From assembly GCA_030123605.1 (NCBI GenBank), contig CP126123.1, positions 4,183,237 to 4,247,236 on the forward strand: DNA of 64,000 nt. Direction: 5' to 3'. The notes below the pieces were generated by a model. That model ran no database searches, was not told where the DNA came from, and worked only from the letters and a program-made list of their open reading frames with translations. The stretch comes from Nitrospira sp. GTDB lineage: Bacteria > Nitrospirota > Nitrospiria > Nitrospirales > Nitrospiraceae. The position numbers and the translations under genes were made by a program. Below, piece by piece: positions 47,271-54,158 of this stretch (its first letter is position 1; every line of letters begins with the position of its first letter).

Positions 47271-50200
47271 CTATCGGCCTGCCGGCGGAGACGCCGGCAG
47301 GGTTTCCTGCCTGTGCGGCGCTCTCCTGATCGCCATGACGGTCAGCGTCACGGCGGAAAAGTTCGCTTCGACGACCCCTTCAATGACATAGGCCCGGTTC
47401 GTGGCGAGCAGGTGGCATGTCCGTCGATAGACATCCGGAAAGATGGTGGCATCGTACAGCCCGGTCACGTCTTCGAAACTGACGAATTCCATCGGATCGC
47501 CGTGTTTCGTATGGACGACCTTCTCCGTAATCAAGACGCCCAGCATGGTGATCGACCGACCGACGTGGTGCGCCATGTCGGAGGCCGAAATCATAGGGGG
47601 TTGATATTGCGTGGCGGGAATCAGGTCGAGCGGATGGCAGCGGAGTGGAAAGCCGAATACCTCGACCTCTTCCGCGATCAGCCGTGACAGGGAATAGTCC
47701 GGCGGGATGGGCAGGTAGCCGGGCGACGATTGCCGTTGCCAGGCCAACAGACGCCAGAGTAGAGCCGGCCTGGTCAGTTCTCCGGCAAGACCGTCGAAGC
47801 AGCCGGCCTTGATGAGAAGCCGGGCTTGTGAAGGATCCGGCTGGATCTGGTTCAGAAAGTCCTGTAAGGAGCGAAACGGACCTTGCTCTGTTCGTCGCGC
47901 GATCAGGCGCGCGACGAGATCTTCCCGCAGGCCTTTGATCTGCATCAGCCCGACGCGGATGCTCCGTGCCCGACCCTGATAAGCCCATTCGCTGTCATTG
48001 ATATCCGGCGGCAGAATCGCCAGCCCCATCCGCCGCGCTTCGGACAGATAGGCAAAGGTCGAGTAGAACCCTCCCTGGTTGCTGATGACCGATGCCATGA
48101 ACTCGGCTGGGTAGTGGGCGCGGAGAAAGGCGGACTTGAACGACACCTGCGCGTAGCTGGCCGAATGCGGTTTACAAAAACTATAGCCGGCGAAACTCAT
48201 GATCATGGCCCACATCTGTTCGATGACGGCCGTTCCGGCTCCCCGCGCCAGGGCGCCTGCGTAAAACTGCCGTTGATAGTCCCGCAGTTGCCGTTGTTTG
48301 TGTTTTTTGCTGAGAATCTTCCGTAACTGATCGCCGTCTTCGATCGAGAATCCGCCGAGCGCCACTGCGACTTTCATCACATCTTCCTGATAGACCATGA
48401 TGCCGAAGGTTTCGTCCAGCACGCCTTGCAGAGCCGGATGAAGGGCACGGTAGGAGTGCCCATGCGCACGGCGGATGAAGTCGTCGGCAAACAGGTGCGC
48501 GGCGGGCCGGATGATGGAGGAGACGATCGTCAGGTACTCGAAGTCGTCGGCCTGCTCCTGTTGCGCGGCCGGCATGGTGGTCCAGAGTTTCTTGAGCAGC
48601 AGTCTCGTCGCGGGGGATTCCACATAGAAGCAGCCCATCGTGTCGCCTTGTCGGATCAAATTTTTGGTCCGGTCATCCGCGAGAGGGTCCCACGTCGCCT
48701 CGTCGATCTGTCGGCCCGTATGCGCGGCGACGGCGGCCATCGCGTCACGGATGACGGCCAGCGAACGATTGCCCAAGATGTCGATCTTGACGAGGCCGGC
48801 CTCTTCCGCCTGATCTTTCTCCCATTGGATGACCGGAAGGCCCTTGGCCGAGACTTCAACCGGTACGTAGCGGCGAATCTCATCCGGCACGAGCACGATG
48901 CCGCCGCAATGGAGACTCAGATTGCGGAAGTGTCCCTCCAGTCGGACGGCCCATCGAATAATGTCCGGCCAGGGATCCTGGAGATGCAGGCTCCGGCAGA
49001 GCCGCGCCGTCCCGGCTTGCGGTGTCCTGTCGGAGTCTCTGGCGAAGTACGGCGCATGGCGTAAGATCAGCGGCAACACGCGGCCGATTTCGGTTGCCGG
49101 CAGACCGTAGACTTTGGCCGTCTCGCGGATTGCGGCACGGAGTGCGAGCGTATTCTGGTTGGCGACCATCGCCGCCGACCGGTTCCCATACCGGGTCAAG
49201 ATCCAACCGAGAATCTTGTCGCGTTCGTCCCAGGGAAAATCGATGTCGATGTCGGGCGGATCGTGTCGTCCCGGGTTGAGAAAGCGTTCGAAAAACAGAT
49301 GATGGCGGATCGGGTCGACGTGGGTGATGTTCAGGCAATAGGAGACGATCGAGGCGGCGGCAGAGCCGCGTCCGCAGGTGCGGGGGGCCTGCCGGACGAT
49401 TTCTTCGACGACCAGGAAATACTGCGCGTACCCCTTGTCGCGGATGACGGCGAGCTCGTGTTCGATGCGCGCTCTGACGCCGGCCGATACTGTGCCGTAG
49501 CGCTTCAGCGCACCCTCGTAGGTCTTTGTGCGAAGGGTCTCGAAGGCCTCTTCCGCGGCACATTGTCGGAAAGTGGGAAAGAGGGTGTCGTTGAAACGCC
49601 AATCGGTGAAACAGGTATCGGCGATGTGCCGGCTGTTGGTGAGGGCCGCGGGCACGTGGGGGTAGTGCCGTTCGAGCTGTGAGGGTGACATCAACCACTG
49701 CGTGGGCCGGCAACAGGCGTTATCCGGCAGACGAGACAGGGTGCTGTTCAGTGCGATGGCGCGCAGGAGCCGGTGAAGTTGGTAGTCAGAGGGAGTCAGA
49801 AATTGAGCACGTGTCGTCGCGACCGGCGGCAATCCGGATCGACGGCTGAAGGCCAGGGCGTCGGCCATGTCCGGTCCCGGCGTCAGTTCGACGAACAGGT
49901 CGTCCGGTGAATCCCGATGCCAGGCCGCGACGGCCGTTTGATCATCGGAAAGGATGACCAAGCCGGTCCTGTGTCGAGCGACGGTGGCGGTGAAGTCGAA
50001 GGACCCGTCGCTATGGCGGGCCGACAGGATGTGACAGAGATTGCCGTAGCCGTTTGGGGTTTTGGCCAACAAGATCGCCCGGTGAGCGGGGGTGGTGAGT
50101 TCGGCGCCGAGGATGGGGTTGATGCCGGATAGCCGAGCGACCTCGAGAAAGCGGATGGCGCCGTAGAGCCCGTTCGTGTCGGTGAGCGCGAGGGTCTCAC

Positions 50201-50303
50201 AACCCTGCGCCTGCGCTGCCCGGCACAGGGTTTCCAGCGACGGGACTCCCTGCATCGGCGAATAGGAGGAATGGACATGCAAATGAACGAACGGAGAAGA
50301 CAT
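47271..50303 (-). CDS. dnaE2: Error-prone DNA polymerase III alpha subunit (DnaE2/ImuC)
   Basis: The 1010-residue protein has an N-terminal PHP domain (VHLHVHSSYSPMQGVPSLE) and the PolIIIalpha palm with GRGSAAASIVSYCLNIT and PPDIDIDFPWDERDKI carrying catalytic aspartates. An HhH region and a C-terminal OB-type segment follow (ITMLGVLITEKVVHTKHGDPMEFVSFED). It is shorter than replicative DnaE (about 1150) and matches ImuC/DnaE2, the translesion polymerase of the imu mutasome. It lies 15 bp after imuB and in one operon with lexA, so it should be SOS-induced. Confidence 0.92.
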   Translation of the reverse strand: MSSPFVHLHVHSSYSPMQGVPSLETLCRAAQAQGCETLALTDTNGLYGAIRFLEVARLSGINPILGAELTTPAHRAILLAKTPNGYGNLCHILSARHSDGSFDFTATVARHRTGLVILSDDQTAVAAWHRDSPDDLFVELTPGPDMADALAFSRRSGLPPVATTRAQFLTPSDYQLHRLLRAIALNSTLSRLPDNACCRPTQWLMSPSQLERHYPHVPAALTNSRHIADTCFTDWRFNDTLFPTFRQCAAEEAFETLRTKTYEGALKRYGTVSAGVRARIEHELAVIRDKGYAQYFLVVEEIVRQAPRTCGRGSAAASIVSYCLNITHVDPIRHHLFFERFLNPGRHDPPDIDIDFPWDERDKILGWILTRYGNRSAAMVANQNTLALRAAIRETAKVYGLPATEIGRVLPLILRHAPYFARDSDRTPQAGTARLCRSLHLQDPWPDIIRWAVRLEGHFRNLSLHCGGIVLVPDEIRRYVPVEVSAKGLPVIQWEKDQAEEAGLVKIDILGNRSLAVIRDAMAAVAAHTGRQIDEATWDPLADDRTKNLIRQGDTMGCFYVESPATRLLLKKLWTTMPAAQQEQADDFEYLTIVSSIIRPAAHLFADDFIRRAHGHSYRALHPALQGVLDETFGIMVYQEDVMKVAVALGGFSIEDGDQLRKILSKKHKQRQLRDYQRQFYAGALARGAGTAVIEQMWAMIMSFAGYSFCKPHSASYAQVSFKSAFLRAHYPAEFMASVISNQGGFYSTFAYLSEARRMGLAILPPDINDSEWAYQGRARSIRVGLMQIKGLREDLVARLIARRTEQGPFRSLQDFLNQIQPDPSQARLLIKAGCFDGLAGELTRPALLWRLLAWQRQSSPGYLPIPPDYSLSRLIAEEVEVFGFPLRCHPLDLIPATQYQPPMISASDMAHHVGRSITMLGVLITEKVVHTKHGDPMEFVSFEDVTGLYDATIFPDVYRRTCHLLATNRAYVIEGVVEANFSAVTLTVMAIRRAPHRQETLPASPPAGR

Positions 50304-50318: not shown

Positions 50319-51509
50319 TCACGCACCGTTTCCGTACTGAATGATTCGGTTTCCGAAGCGCGCTCTGAGTCGATCAAGGGTGAGCGCGAGTCGCTGCGCA
50401 CGGGCTCGCCTGGTGCAAGCGATCTCCGTCGGATCATCAAAGAGTCGGCCCTGTTCGAAAGGAGCCGCCAGTTCTGTGGCGATGAGCGTCAAGGTGCGGA
50501 GACGTATGCGACGGCGGAAGCAGCGGTGCAGTAACGTTCGGAGCGGCGGAGCGAGATCATATTCCCAATAGCTGGCCGGTGCGATCGGCTGCTGTCCGGT
50601 GACATCGGTCCGGTCGCTGTAGCGGATCGTCAGGGTCAACCGCTTGCACGTACGCTGGTGCAGGCGCAAGGCGCGGCAGAGTTCTTCAAGCAGGCCGGCC
50701 AAACGGCGCCATACGGCATGGTCATCGATGTCGTCCGGCCGTAATGGACATGACACTTCGAGTCGAGGCTGGATCTGCGACGGCATGACCGGCGTGGAGT
50801 CGATACCTTGGGCCCAGCGTTGCAACGGGGCTGCCCACCGACCGACGGCGATGTCGAGGGCAGGGAGGGGAATGTCGGCCACATCCCCGAACGTGCGGAG
50901 ATTCAGGTCTGCCAAACATCGGCGAATCGATTTCATCTGCGGTCGGTGGAGCAGGGGCAAGGTCTCGATCCGCAAGGGAGCCATGAAGGCCCGCTCCGAA
51001 CCGTGACGGACCTCGTAGATCTGTGTCGGTTGAATCAAGCCGGCGGCGGTCTGCGCGATCAACTTGTTGCTGCCGATGCCCAACATGCCGTCGAGATGAA
51101 CTTGCATGGCGATATCCCGTTGCAGACGCCCGGCGGTATCGCAGGTGAGGCCGAAGAGCCTCGTGGTGCCCGTCAGATCCAGCACGAAGGAGCCGGGGCT
51201 GGTCGATTCCCAGACCGGCGTGTAACGGGTGATGATGTGGGACAACATGGTGTGCGCCTGAGCGGTGCGGATGGAATCGGGCGTCAGGACATGAAGCGCT
51301 GGACAGAGTTGTCTGGCCTGCTGGACGACCATGCCGGGGTACAGGCCGTCGGCGGCGGCTTCCGGTGAGACATCGTGCAATAGGGTGCGCGGGTGCGCGA
51401 CCGGTGCGAGACCGATGGGCCTGTCGCGCAGACGAGGTTCATTCAGGCGGGCAAGCGTGAGTTCGAACGACGGCACCGCAAGACACACGATTTGACGATC
51501 CATGGGCAA
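50319..51509 (-). CDS. imuB: Catalytically dead Y-family polymerase homologue ImuB
   Basis: The 396-residue protein has the Y-family fold order but lacks the catalytic acids. The first motif, HVDMDAFFASVE in Pol IV, reads CLAVPSFELTLARL here, and the second, SIDExxLD, reads SPGSFVLDLTGT. Fingers, HhH (IPLPALDIAVGRW) and little-finger-like parts are recognisable. ImuB acts as a hub linking DnaE2 to the beta clamp in damage-induced mutagenesis. It is located between lexA (24-bp gap) and dnaE2. No separate imuA gene is seen here. Confidence 0.85.
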   Translation of the reverse strand: MPMDRQIVCLAVPSFELTLARLNEPRLRDRPIGLAPVAHPRTLLHDVSPEAAADGLYPGMVVQQARQLCPALHVLTPDSIRTAQAHTMLSHIITRYTPVWESTSPGSFVLDLTGTTRLFGLTCDTAGRLQRDIAMQVHLDGMLGIGSNKLIAQTAAGLIQPTQIYEVRHGSERAFMAPLRIETLPLLHRPQMKSIRRCLADLNLRTFGDVADIPLPALDIAVGRWAAPLQRWAQGIDSTPVMPSQIQPRLEVSCPLRPDDIDDHAVWRRLAGLLEELCRALRLHQRTCKRLTLTIRYSDRTDVTGQQPIAPASYWEYDLAPPLRTLLHRCFRRRIRLRTLTLIATELAAPFEQGRLFDDPTEIACTRRARAQRLALTLDRLRARFGNRIIQYGNGA

Positions 51510-51533: not shown

Positions 51534-52079
51534 TTATTTTGTGCAGTAACGAATGACGCCGATGACCAGACCCTCGATGTGCAGCGAATCCGTCGATTTG
51601 ACCGTAATCGGCTTCATGGTGTCGTTCGCCGGACGCAATTCGACCGTGGAACCTTTGCGATGATAGGTTTTGATCGTGGCGTCGTTGTTGAGGATCGCGA
51701 TCACCGTCTGACCGTTTCTGGCCGTGTGCTGTTTTTGGACGATGACGAGGTCGCCCGGCAGAATGCCTTCGTCCCGCATGGACTCCCCCTTCACCCGCAA
51801 CGCGAACGTTTCGCCGCGGCCCACCATGCCGGGAGGGACCTCGACCACTTCGGTTTGGGGAATCGGTTCGATCGGATCACCGGCCGCCACCAGACCGGCC
51901 AGGGGAATGTGTGCTGCGGTGGTGAGGTGATCGATCGCTAGTCGAACGGCAAACGGAATCTTGTGGGTGCCGAGTTCATACCGCGCGATGGTCTGGCGGG
52001 TCGTTCTCAGCCGGCCGGCGAGTTGTTCCTGGGTCAAACCCAGCGCCTGACGCACTTTCTTGAGGTCGGTGGAGTGCAT
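51534..52079 (-). CDS. lexA: LexA-type repressor with XRE DNA-binding domain
   Basis: The 181-residue protein combines an N-terminal HTH_3/XRE domain ([30 protein letters not shown]) with a C-terminal S24 peptidase domain. The self-cleavage site is Ala66-Gly67 (LVAAGDPI), with Ser100 (GESM) and Lys137. The Ala-to-Ser and Ser-to-Lys distances (34 and 37) equal those of E. coli LexA. Classical LexA has a winged helix, so this is an XRE-type variant. It probably represses its own operon with imuB and dnaE2 and perhaps the divergent uvrB. The promoter and operator lie directly upstream. Confidence 0.85.
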
Positions 52080-52116
52080 GTAACGAATCGTTACATTATC
52101 GGGAACCGCCTGTCAA
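52079..52116 (-). promoter_or_regulatory. lexA promoter with a 17-bp palindromic operator
   Basis: On the minus strand, TTGACA (52116-52111) is followed after 17 bp by TAACGA (52093-52088). The -10 lies inside a perfect palindrome TGTAACGATTCGTTACA (52079-52095), whose last base is the A of the lexA ATG. Transcription would start at or within a base or two of the ATG, giving a leaderless mRNA. Bound LexA would block the -10 and the start. This motif differs from the E. coli (CTGT-N8-ACAG) and Bacillus (CGAAC-N4-GTTCG) boxes. Confidence 0.7.
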
Positions 52117-52160
52117 GGCAGGAAGCGAGCGAGCCGATATCCGTGCTAAGATGCGAGGCG

Positions 52161-54158
52161 ATGCCTCCGTTCAAACTGGAAGCTCCCTTCAAACCTTGCG
52201 GTGATCAGGGGCAAGCCATTGAGAAGCTGACGGCCGGGATGCTGGCCGGGAAGCCGCATCAGGTCTTGCTCGGCGTCACCGGCTCCGGCAAGACCTTCAC
52301 GATGGCCAATGTGGTCGAACGGGTGCAGAAGCCGACGCTCGTGCTTGTGCACAACAAGACCCTGGCCGGCCAGCTCTACCAGGAGTTCAAGCAATTCTTC
52401 CCTCACAATGCCGTTGAATACTTCATCAGTTATTACGACTATTACCAGCCGGAAGCCTACATCCCGCAGAGCGACACCTACATTGCGAAGGATGCCTCGA
52501 TCAACGACGCGATCGACCAGATGCGCCATGCGGCGACCACGTCGCTGCTGCAGCGCAATGATGTGCTGATCGTGTCGTCGGTTTCCTGCATCTACGGCCT
52601 CGGCTCGCCGGAGGTGTACCATGACATGTTGGTGTATCTGGAAGAGGGGATGGAGACCAGGCGCGAAAAGATCCTGGCGAAGTTGGTGGATATTCAGTAT
52701 GCCCGCAACGATGTGGATTTTCATCGTGGGACCTTTCGCGCGCGTGGCGATGTCATCGAGATTTTTCCGGCTTCGTCGGAAGCGAAGTCCGTGCGCATCG
52801 AACTGTTCGGCGATGTGGTGGACGCCATCCATGAGATCGATCCGCTCACCGGGAAATCGCTGGGCCGGCTGCCGAAGATCGCCGTCTATCCGAATACGCA
52901 CTATCTCATTGCGCCGGATCGCTACGAACGGGCGATCACGGGAATCGAGGAGGAGTTGGAGGCGCGGGTGGCTGCGTTCAGAAAAACCGGACAACTGCTG
53001 GAGGCGCAACGGATCGAACAACGCACCAAGTTCGATCTCGAAATGATCCGCGCCATGGGGTATTGCCACGGGATCGAGAATTATTCGCGCCATCTGAGCG
53101 GGCGCGCGCCGGGTGAGCCACCGCCGACGCTGTTGGATTATTTCCCCAAGGACTTTCTGTTGATCGTCGATGAATCACACGCGACCGTGCCGCAAGTCGG
53201 CGGGATGTACGAGGGCGATTTTTCGCGGAAGCGTACCCTCGTGGAGTATGGATTCAGGTTGCCGTCCGCCGTCGACAATCGCCCGCTGAAGTTCGCCGAA
53301 TTTGAGCGGATGCTGAAGCAGGTGATCTACGTGTCGGCCACGCCCGGGCCGTATGAGTTGGACCATGCCAAGGGAGAGGTCGTCGAACAGATCATCCGGC
53401 CGACCGGCCTGATGGATCCGCTCATCGACGTGCGTTCGGCCAAGGGGCAGGTGGACAATCTGCTGGCTGAAGTCCGGGCGGAAGCGGCGAAGGGGAACCG
53501 TGTGCTGGTCACGACCCTGACCAAGCGGATGGCCGAAGACCTCACGGAGTATTATTACGACCTCGGCGTGAAGGTGCGGTATCTGCATTCGGACATCAAG
53601 ACGCTGGAACGGGCGGAGATCATTCGCGACCTCCGACGCGGCGTTTTCGATGTGCTGGTCGGGATCAATCTGTTGCGGGAGGGGTTGGATCTTCCTGAGG
53701 TCGGCTTGGTCGCGATTCTGGACGCGGACAAGGAGGGCTATCTCCGCTCACACCGGTCGTTGATTCAAACTGCGGGACGCGCAGCGCGGAATGTGGACGG
53801 GCGGGTCATTTTTTACGGCGATACGGTCACCGATTCGATGCAATTGGCCATGGAGGAGACCGCGCGCCGGCGCCATATCCAGGAGGCTTACAATAGGGCC
53901 CATGGAATTACGCCGGAGAGCATCAAGAAAAGCATCCCGACGCTCGACTATGCGGCGGCCGAGTTGGATTACGTCCAGCTGGACCTGGCCGCTGAAGCGC
54001 CGGCAGTCTACAAGACCGACGAGGATGTGACGCAGTTGGTGCAGCGGCTGGAGGTGGAGATGAAAGCGGCGGCGAAGAAGCTGGAGTTCGAGCGGGCGGC
54101 GGAGCTACGGAATCGCATTCGTGCGTTGAAGATGAAGGATCTTGAACTCAAGTCGTGA
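52161..54158 (+). CDS. uvrB: Excinuclease ABC subunit B
   Basis: The 665-residue protein has the helicase-like motifs [16 protein letters not shown], the beta-hairpin segment [39 protein letters not shown] and [14 protein letters not shown]-terminal UVR motif ([21 protein letters not shown]) binds UvrC. It loads at damage marked by UvrA. The gene is divergent from lexA across 81 bp that contain the LexA palindrome, so SOS control is likely. ATG 52161 starts the family sequence [15 protein letters not shown]. Confidence 0.96.

Follow-up and report, generated by a model that had tools for sequence, protein, structure and literature searches.

The window, the whole stretch of 64,000 nucleotides of Nitrospira DNA that was analysed here, carries on its minus strand a lexA-like gene followed by imuB and dnaE2 homologues, a gene order that is repeated in many relatives, with uvrB as divergent neighbour:

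47271 to 50303, minus strand: dnaE2/imuC-like error-prone DNA polymerase III alpha (PF07733, PF17657, PF02811)
50319 to 51509, minus strand: imuB-like Y-family polymerase homologue (PF00817 and PF11799), probable start ATG at 51503
51534 to 52079, minus strand: lexA-like repressor of 181 aa, with HTH_3 (residues 6-40) and Peptidase_S24 (59-173) by domain matches
52161 to 54158, plus strand: uvrB (NF003673/TIGR00631)

The operon of the window lacks imuA, for which there is no room between the end of lexA at 51534 and the start of imuB at 51509 or 51503. The imuB and dnaE2 genes are nearly contiguous in the window and are separated by gaps of about 200-500 bp in loci L006, L010, L013, L018, L025 and L026.

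A reading of this DNA made from the letters alone, hereafter the sequence-only reading, had described the repressor as an XRE-type rather than a winged-helix LexA, and the domain searches agree with this description. HTH_3 (E-value 3.6e-9) and Peptidase_S24 (1.4e-27) are found in the protein, HTH_3/XRE taking the place of the LexA_DNA_bind domain (PF01726), which is absent; a PF01726 search of the whole own genome also gave no match. The LexA equivalog model TIGR00498 scores 124.1 bits against an NCBI cut-off of 110.95, with only its positions 61-201, the C-terminal part, being matched, and the nearest solved relatives are the C-terminal domains of LexA proteins. An Ala-Gly bond (A66-G67) and a Ser-Lys dyad (S100/K137), as known from the S24 SOS regulators LexA, HdiR, UmuDAb and CI, correspond in position to the cleavage bond and catalytic dyad of LexA, and none of these residues varies among 24 homologous sequences. 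In the AlphaFold model (mean pLDDT 86) the N-terminal part folds into four helices, among which the one at about residues 28-36 is predicted to sit at the position of the recognition helix. Strong winged-helix LexA proteins occur in three genomes of the family (G027, G114 and G137), from all of which the XRE-type LexA is absent. The viral and phage relatives of the repressor are distant ones only (at most 44% identity in the C-terminal domain and about 30% over the full length), and none of them points to a phage source.

The start of lexA is preceded by the following elements, all of which lie on the minus strand:

52111 to 52116, minus strand: -35 element TTGACA of the lexA promoter, from sequence and a spacing to the box kept in relatives
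52079 to 52095, minus strand: putative operator TGTAACGATTCGTTACA, a perfect 17-bp palindrome, from sequence, genome scan and family conservation
52088 to 52093, minus strand: probable -10 element TAACGA, with a spacer of 17, within the operator, from sequence and conserved spacing
52095 to 52087, minus strand: alternative extended -10 element TG-T-AACGAT, with a spacer of 18
52079 to 52081, minus strand: predicted transcription start region, from the A at 52081 to the A at 52079, giving a 5' UTR of 0-2 nt, as judged from the position of the -10 element

Read along the minus strand, TTGACA (52116-52111) is followed by 15 nucleotides (52110-52096), by TGTAACGATTCGTTACA (52095-52079), whose symmetry is exact over 17 bases about its central base, and then by TG, so that the palindrome ends on the A that opens the lexA start codon, ATG (52079-52077). 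The earlier claims of a perfect palindrome ending on the first base of the ATG, and of a TTGACA-N17-TAACGA promoter with its -10 inside the palindrome, are thus confirmed on this strand, with the qualification that the extended -10 is an equally possible reading. By consensus the -10 hexamer is poor, and a consensus scan detected no promoter. The box itself is distinctive. TGTAAC-N5-GTTACA has one exact match in the window, where the other four need three mismatches, and a scan with a position weight matrix (PWM) gives the lexA box a score of 22.7 and the next best site 8.8. In the 4.32-Mb genome only two exact sites exist, each at the start of an XRE-S24 lexA paralogue; a further own-genome pattern, TGTAACNATNGTTACA, was one base short of the intended box, and its result carries no meaning.

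The arrangement extends to the family. A further 56 lexA-like loci, taken from 40 genomes of the family and including the own-genome paralogue, were compared, and every one (56/56) has TTGAC, a short spacer, a box of the TGTNNC-N5-GNNAC type and an ATG at the last base of the box or at most 3 nt away; the ATG lies 1-3 nt past the box in roughly half the homologues. The spacer between TTGAC and the box is 14, 15 or 16 nt in 54/54 loci measured, and its sequence is variable. Minor departures exist: the boxes of L099 and L121 end in T instead of A, were missed by the script and are plain by eye, with TTGAC upstream; that of L138 begins with C, and that of L147 has two mismatches in the right arm. 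A separate set of contig loci has the box in 28/28 readable cases, directly at the ATG in 27. In 60 family genomes the family pattern occurs at 42 sites, against none for the reversed-pattern control.

The box varies together with the protein that it precedes. Across the loci, the half-sites are of the types TGTAAC, TGTGAC, TGTATC and TGTTAC. Residue 29, the second position of the recognition helix, is Arg in 10/10 TGTGAC loci and Val, Met, Gln, Thr or Ile in 61/61 loci with the TGTAAC or TGTTAC types, while residues 27-30 are KRLA in 9/9 TGTATC loci. Furthermore, box positions 6-7 are CG or CA with QT helices (7/7) and CC with VS helices (31/31). In a tree that uses the C-terminal domain only, TGTGAC needs at least three changes on the starred branches, and residue 29 switches with TGTGAC in 3/3 independent pairs on that tree (sign test, p 0.25); since no significance can come from three pairs, the strength of the co-variation lies in the pattern and not in the statistics. 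Its presence at every homologue and its co-variation with the recognition helix make it very probable that the palindrome, which overlaps the core promoter, serves the XRE-type LexA as operator. That it is bound instead by some other dimeric regulator, and stands before lexA by history only, is highly improbable, given that, across 60 genomes, nearly all sites are found at lexA-like starts or at imuB and follow the recognition helix of the LexA-like protein.

The second XRE-S24 paralogue of the own genome (1321626-1322156), which is 58% identical to the window protein and whose box ends 2 nt before its ATG, raises the question of which repressor uses which site. N. defluvii has both of these paralogues as well. 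Both own-genome boxes have TGTAAC half-sites and the two recognition helices are close, as would be expected if the window box were equally a target of the paralogue and the two repressors cross-regulated. We regard this as rather unlikely, because paralogues of one genome have differing boxes in each of the 16 genomes that carry two or three of them (in G038, with three paralogues, there are up to three different boxes), and the match between helix type and box positions 6-7 suggests insulation.

As regards the targets of the XRE-type LexA, the sequence-only reading had expected boxes at other damage genes, and this held for imuB-dnaE2, which lies in the operon here and has its own box in five relatives, but neither for recA nor for further convincing sites in the own genome. 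In fact, nine sites of the 60-genome scan lie away from lexA. In genomes G123, G141, G146, G163 and G164 an unlinked imuB has a box just upstream, with the same TTGAC grammar, whereas the sites in L092, L093, L095 and L096 have no known damage gene beside them. The upstream regions of recA in 30 genomes contain no box, their best scores being at the level of shuffled sequence, and sites with one mismatch number 30 in the own genome against 81 in the control, with no further convincing box; uvrA and other repair genes were covered through the genome-wide scan. With the sites away from lexA mostly at imuB, recA without a box and one-mismatch sites below the control, the regulon looks like a tiny one, a mutagenesis unit of few genes instead of a full SOS response, and to call the repressor an SOS master regulator would be an overstatement, since a good box is found at no other SOS gene of its own genome.

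Some single sites were considered individually. The L095 site, within a long ORF, is probably due to chance, and the best degenerate own-genome site by PWM (3283962, score 20.6) was set aside, having neither a TTGAC promoter nor an adjoining damage gene. At position 726 of L093 (G029:C75) a box, TGTATCCATTGGATACA, lies behind TTGACC and abuts the start of an ORF of about 118 aa, whose first 100 residues match no Pfam family.

The nearest candidate for a further target is uvrB, a classical SOS gene, which is divergent from the box and close to it in the window as well as in L003-L005, L097 and L098. An operator controlling both directions would make a bidirectional SOS switch in this clade. However, alignment of the divergent regions gives a single strongly conserved promoter-like element on the uvrB side:

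52144 to 52152, plus strand: conserved TGCTAAGAT, candidate extended -10 element of uvrB

This element suggests a uvrB promoter about 50 nt beyond the box, which would then be 64-80 nt upstream of the uvrB start point, and further in L098; moreover, the box is kept in other Nitrospira without an adjoining uvrB. Direct control of uvrB by the box is doubtful, and we consider the bidirectional switch unlikely. The uvrB gene is by appearance nearly leaderless too, TGCTAAGAT ending 8 nt ahead of its ATG (window 52144-52163).

Under either reading of the -10 element the lexA mRNA would start 0-2 nt from the ATG and is probably leaderless. Pairing with the anti-Shine-Dalgarno (anti-SD) sequence has a median of -2.7 kcal/mol at lexA and -7.95 at recA, and reaches -4.5 kcal/mol or better at 1/56 lexA starts, whereas 30/30 recA starts pair well, a control that leans, the recA starts having been chosen partly by their SD. 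The alternative is an mRNA with a normal leader, made from an upstream promoter, with TTGACA and the -10 unused. The weak -10 would fit such a promoter, as would L028, where the box and TTGAC are followed by an SD-containing leader; against it, the distance between TTGAC and the box hardly changes across all loci although the spacer sequence does, and a good SD is missing at lexA in 55/56 loci. We hold it to be quite unlikely. The leaderless start appears to be a feature of the repressor gene, because leaders are longer at the unlinked imuB genes that carry the same box. The leaderless layout had also been taken to tie repression to the start of translation. This tie is unsupported, since the repressor binds DNA, acting on transcription, and the unlinked imuB promoters have the box without overlap; in addition, the ATG lies beyond the box in the homologues mentioned above.

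On these grounds the palindrome is, with high likelihood, the autoregulatory operator of a CI-type LexA (XRE-HTH and S24 autoprotease) that stands in for the winged-helix LexA in Nitrospira and would repress lexA-imuB-dnaE2 until RecA-triggered cleavage. In the model that we infer, which comprises binding, repression, RecA-triggered cleavage and the start point, a LexA dimer would bind both TGTAAC half-sites, within which the -10 region and the start point lie, and would thereby keep RNA polymerase off the lexA-imuB-dnaE2 promoter. Upon DNA damage, RecA filaments would trigger self-cleavage of LexA at A66-G67 by Ser100/Lys137. The operator would then be vacated, and the error-prone polymerase module would be expressed together with the repressor itself, whose mRNA, beginning 0-2 nt from the ATG, would be translated leaderless.

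The control of SOS genes by CI-type repressors is already known from the Bacteroidetes, from FddR and from HdiR, a CI-type repressor in charge of SOS genes; as judged by comparison of motifs, what appears to be new here is the Nitrospira host and the operator type. The new operator type anticipated by the sequence-only reading is in keeping with this, the box being different from the LexA motifs in the literature compared, and among open-access papers none was found on LexA regulation in Nitrospira. The closest parallel is the non-canonical LexA of Bacteroidetes, a family called exclusive to that phylum, which combines a PF01381-type HTH with an S24 autoprotease and controls the SOS polymerases and itself where canonical LexA is absent; a functional LexA was proposed there as chromosomal repressor of repair, translesion and cell-cycle genes (PMC8565304). 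The two systems are alike in HTH and S24 domains, in autoregulation and control of SOS polymerases, both predicted for Nitrospira, and in palindromic boxes with a fixed spacer and the absence of canonical LexA, and are set apart by motif (GGA-N5-TCC and CTAA-N5-TTAG in Bacteroidetes, TGTNNC-N5-GNNACA in Nitrospira), host and regulon, the latter being larger in Bacteroidetes and limited to the mutagenesis operon in Nitrospira. FddR of Francisella is a co-opted phage repressor with the motif GTG-N11-CAC (PMC13148647), and shares with the Nitrospira LexA the autoregulation and tiny local regulon that are predicted for the latter, coexisting diverged paralogues and a recA outside the regulon; unlike the Nitrospira paralogues, with their different boxes, those of FddR keep one motif. 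In the lexA-imuA-imuB-dnaE2 mutagenesis cassette (Abella 2004; Erill 2006; both as cited in PMC3919608) imuB-dnaE2 likewise lies in an operon behind a LexA box, whereas in Nitrospira the LexA is of XRE-type and imuA is absent.

The layout at the ATG also has counterparts among winged-helix repressors. The LexA of Mycobacterium tuberculosis is a winged-helix protein. Its lexA gene is leaderless, the coincidence of transcription and translation start having been measured (PMC2897130), while in Nitrospira it is predicted. In the sister genus g3 (L211 and L212), a palindrome, GGTGTACTTTTATGCACC, abuts the ATG of a winged-helix lexA, with TTGACA upstream; the layout is alike, and the DNA-binding domain and operator are unrelated. 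The operator-against-ATG layout therefore either survived a replacement of the DNA-binding domain or arose a second time.

If the reading of the palindrome as a CI-type LexA operator is true, the Nitrospira nitrite oxidisers join the groups whose damage control has passed to a phage-type repressor, and bring a new type of operator. The series of paralogues and their matched boxes would be a natural record of repressor-operator co-change, making a specificity code (residue 29 versus half-site position 4) directly testable, and the small regulon suggests that a circuit for induced mutagenesis can stand by itself, with recA outside it. More tentatively, and with slightly less than even confidence, we propose that Nitrospira has two or three parallel, insulated damage switches, each consisting of a phage-type LexA, a separate operator recognised through a small number of helix residues, chiefly 29, and a separate polymerase operon (imuB-dnaE2, or Rad51-like protein and family-B polymerase), and that the leaderless operator-at-ATG layout persisted or re-arose where the sister genus has winged-helix LexA.

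The neighbourhoods of the paralogues are diverse. Behind the second lexA-like gene of the own genome (L142, G000:C1, near 1322168) come two small ORFs, without Rad51-like or polymerase genes, and a family-B polymerase search of this genome gave no match. In L105 and L113 (G036 and G101), as well as in G002, G111, G151, G153 and G158, a lexA-like paralogue heads a different type of operon, with small ORFs (coiled-coil-like, CxxC), a Rad51/RadA-like protein of about 240 aa and a family-B DNA polymerase of about 750 aa; of the 10 genomes with a match to family-B polymerase, 7 have it at a distance of no more than about 3 kb from an XRE-type lexA. L208 (G137:C54) has an operon of similar make-up, with Rad51-like protein and family-B polymerase, near a winged-helix LexA instead, as though one type of repressor had replaced the other at a single operon.
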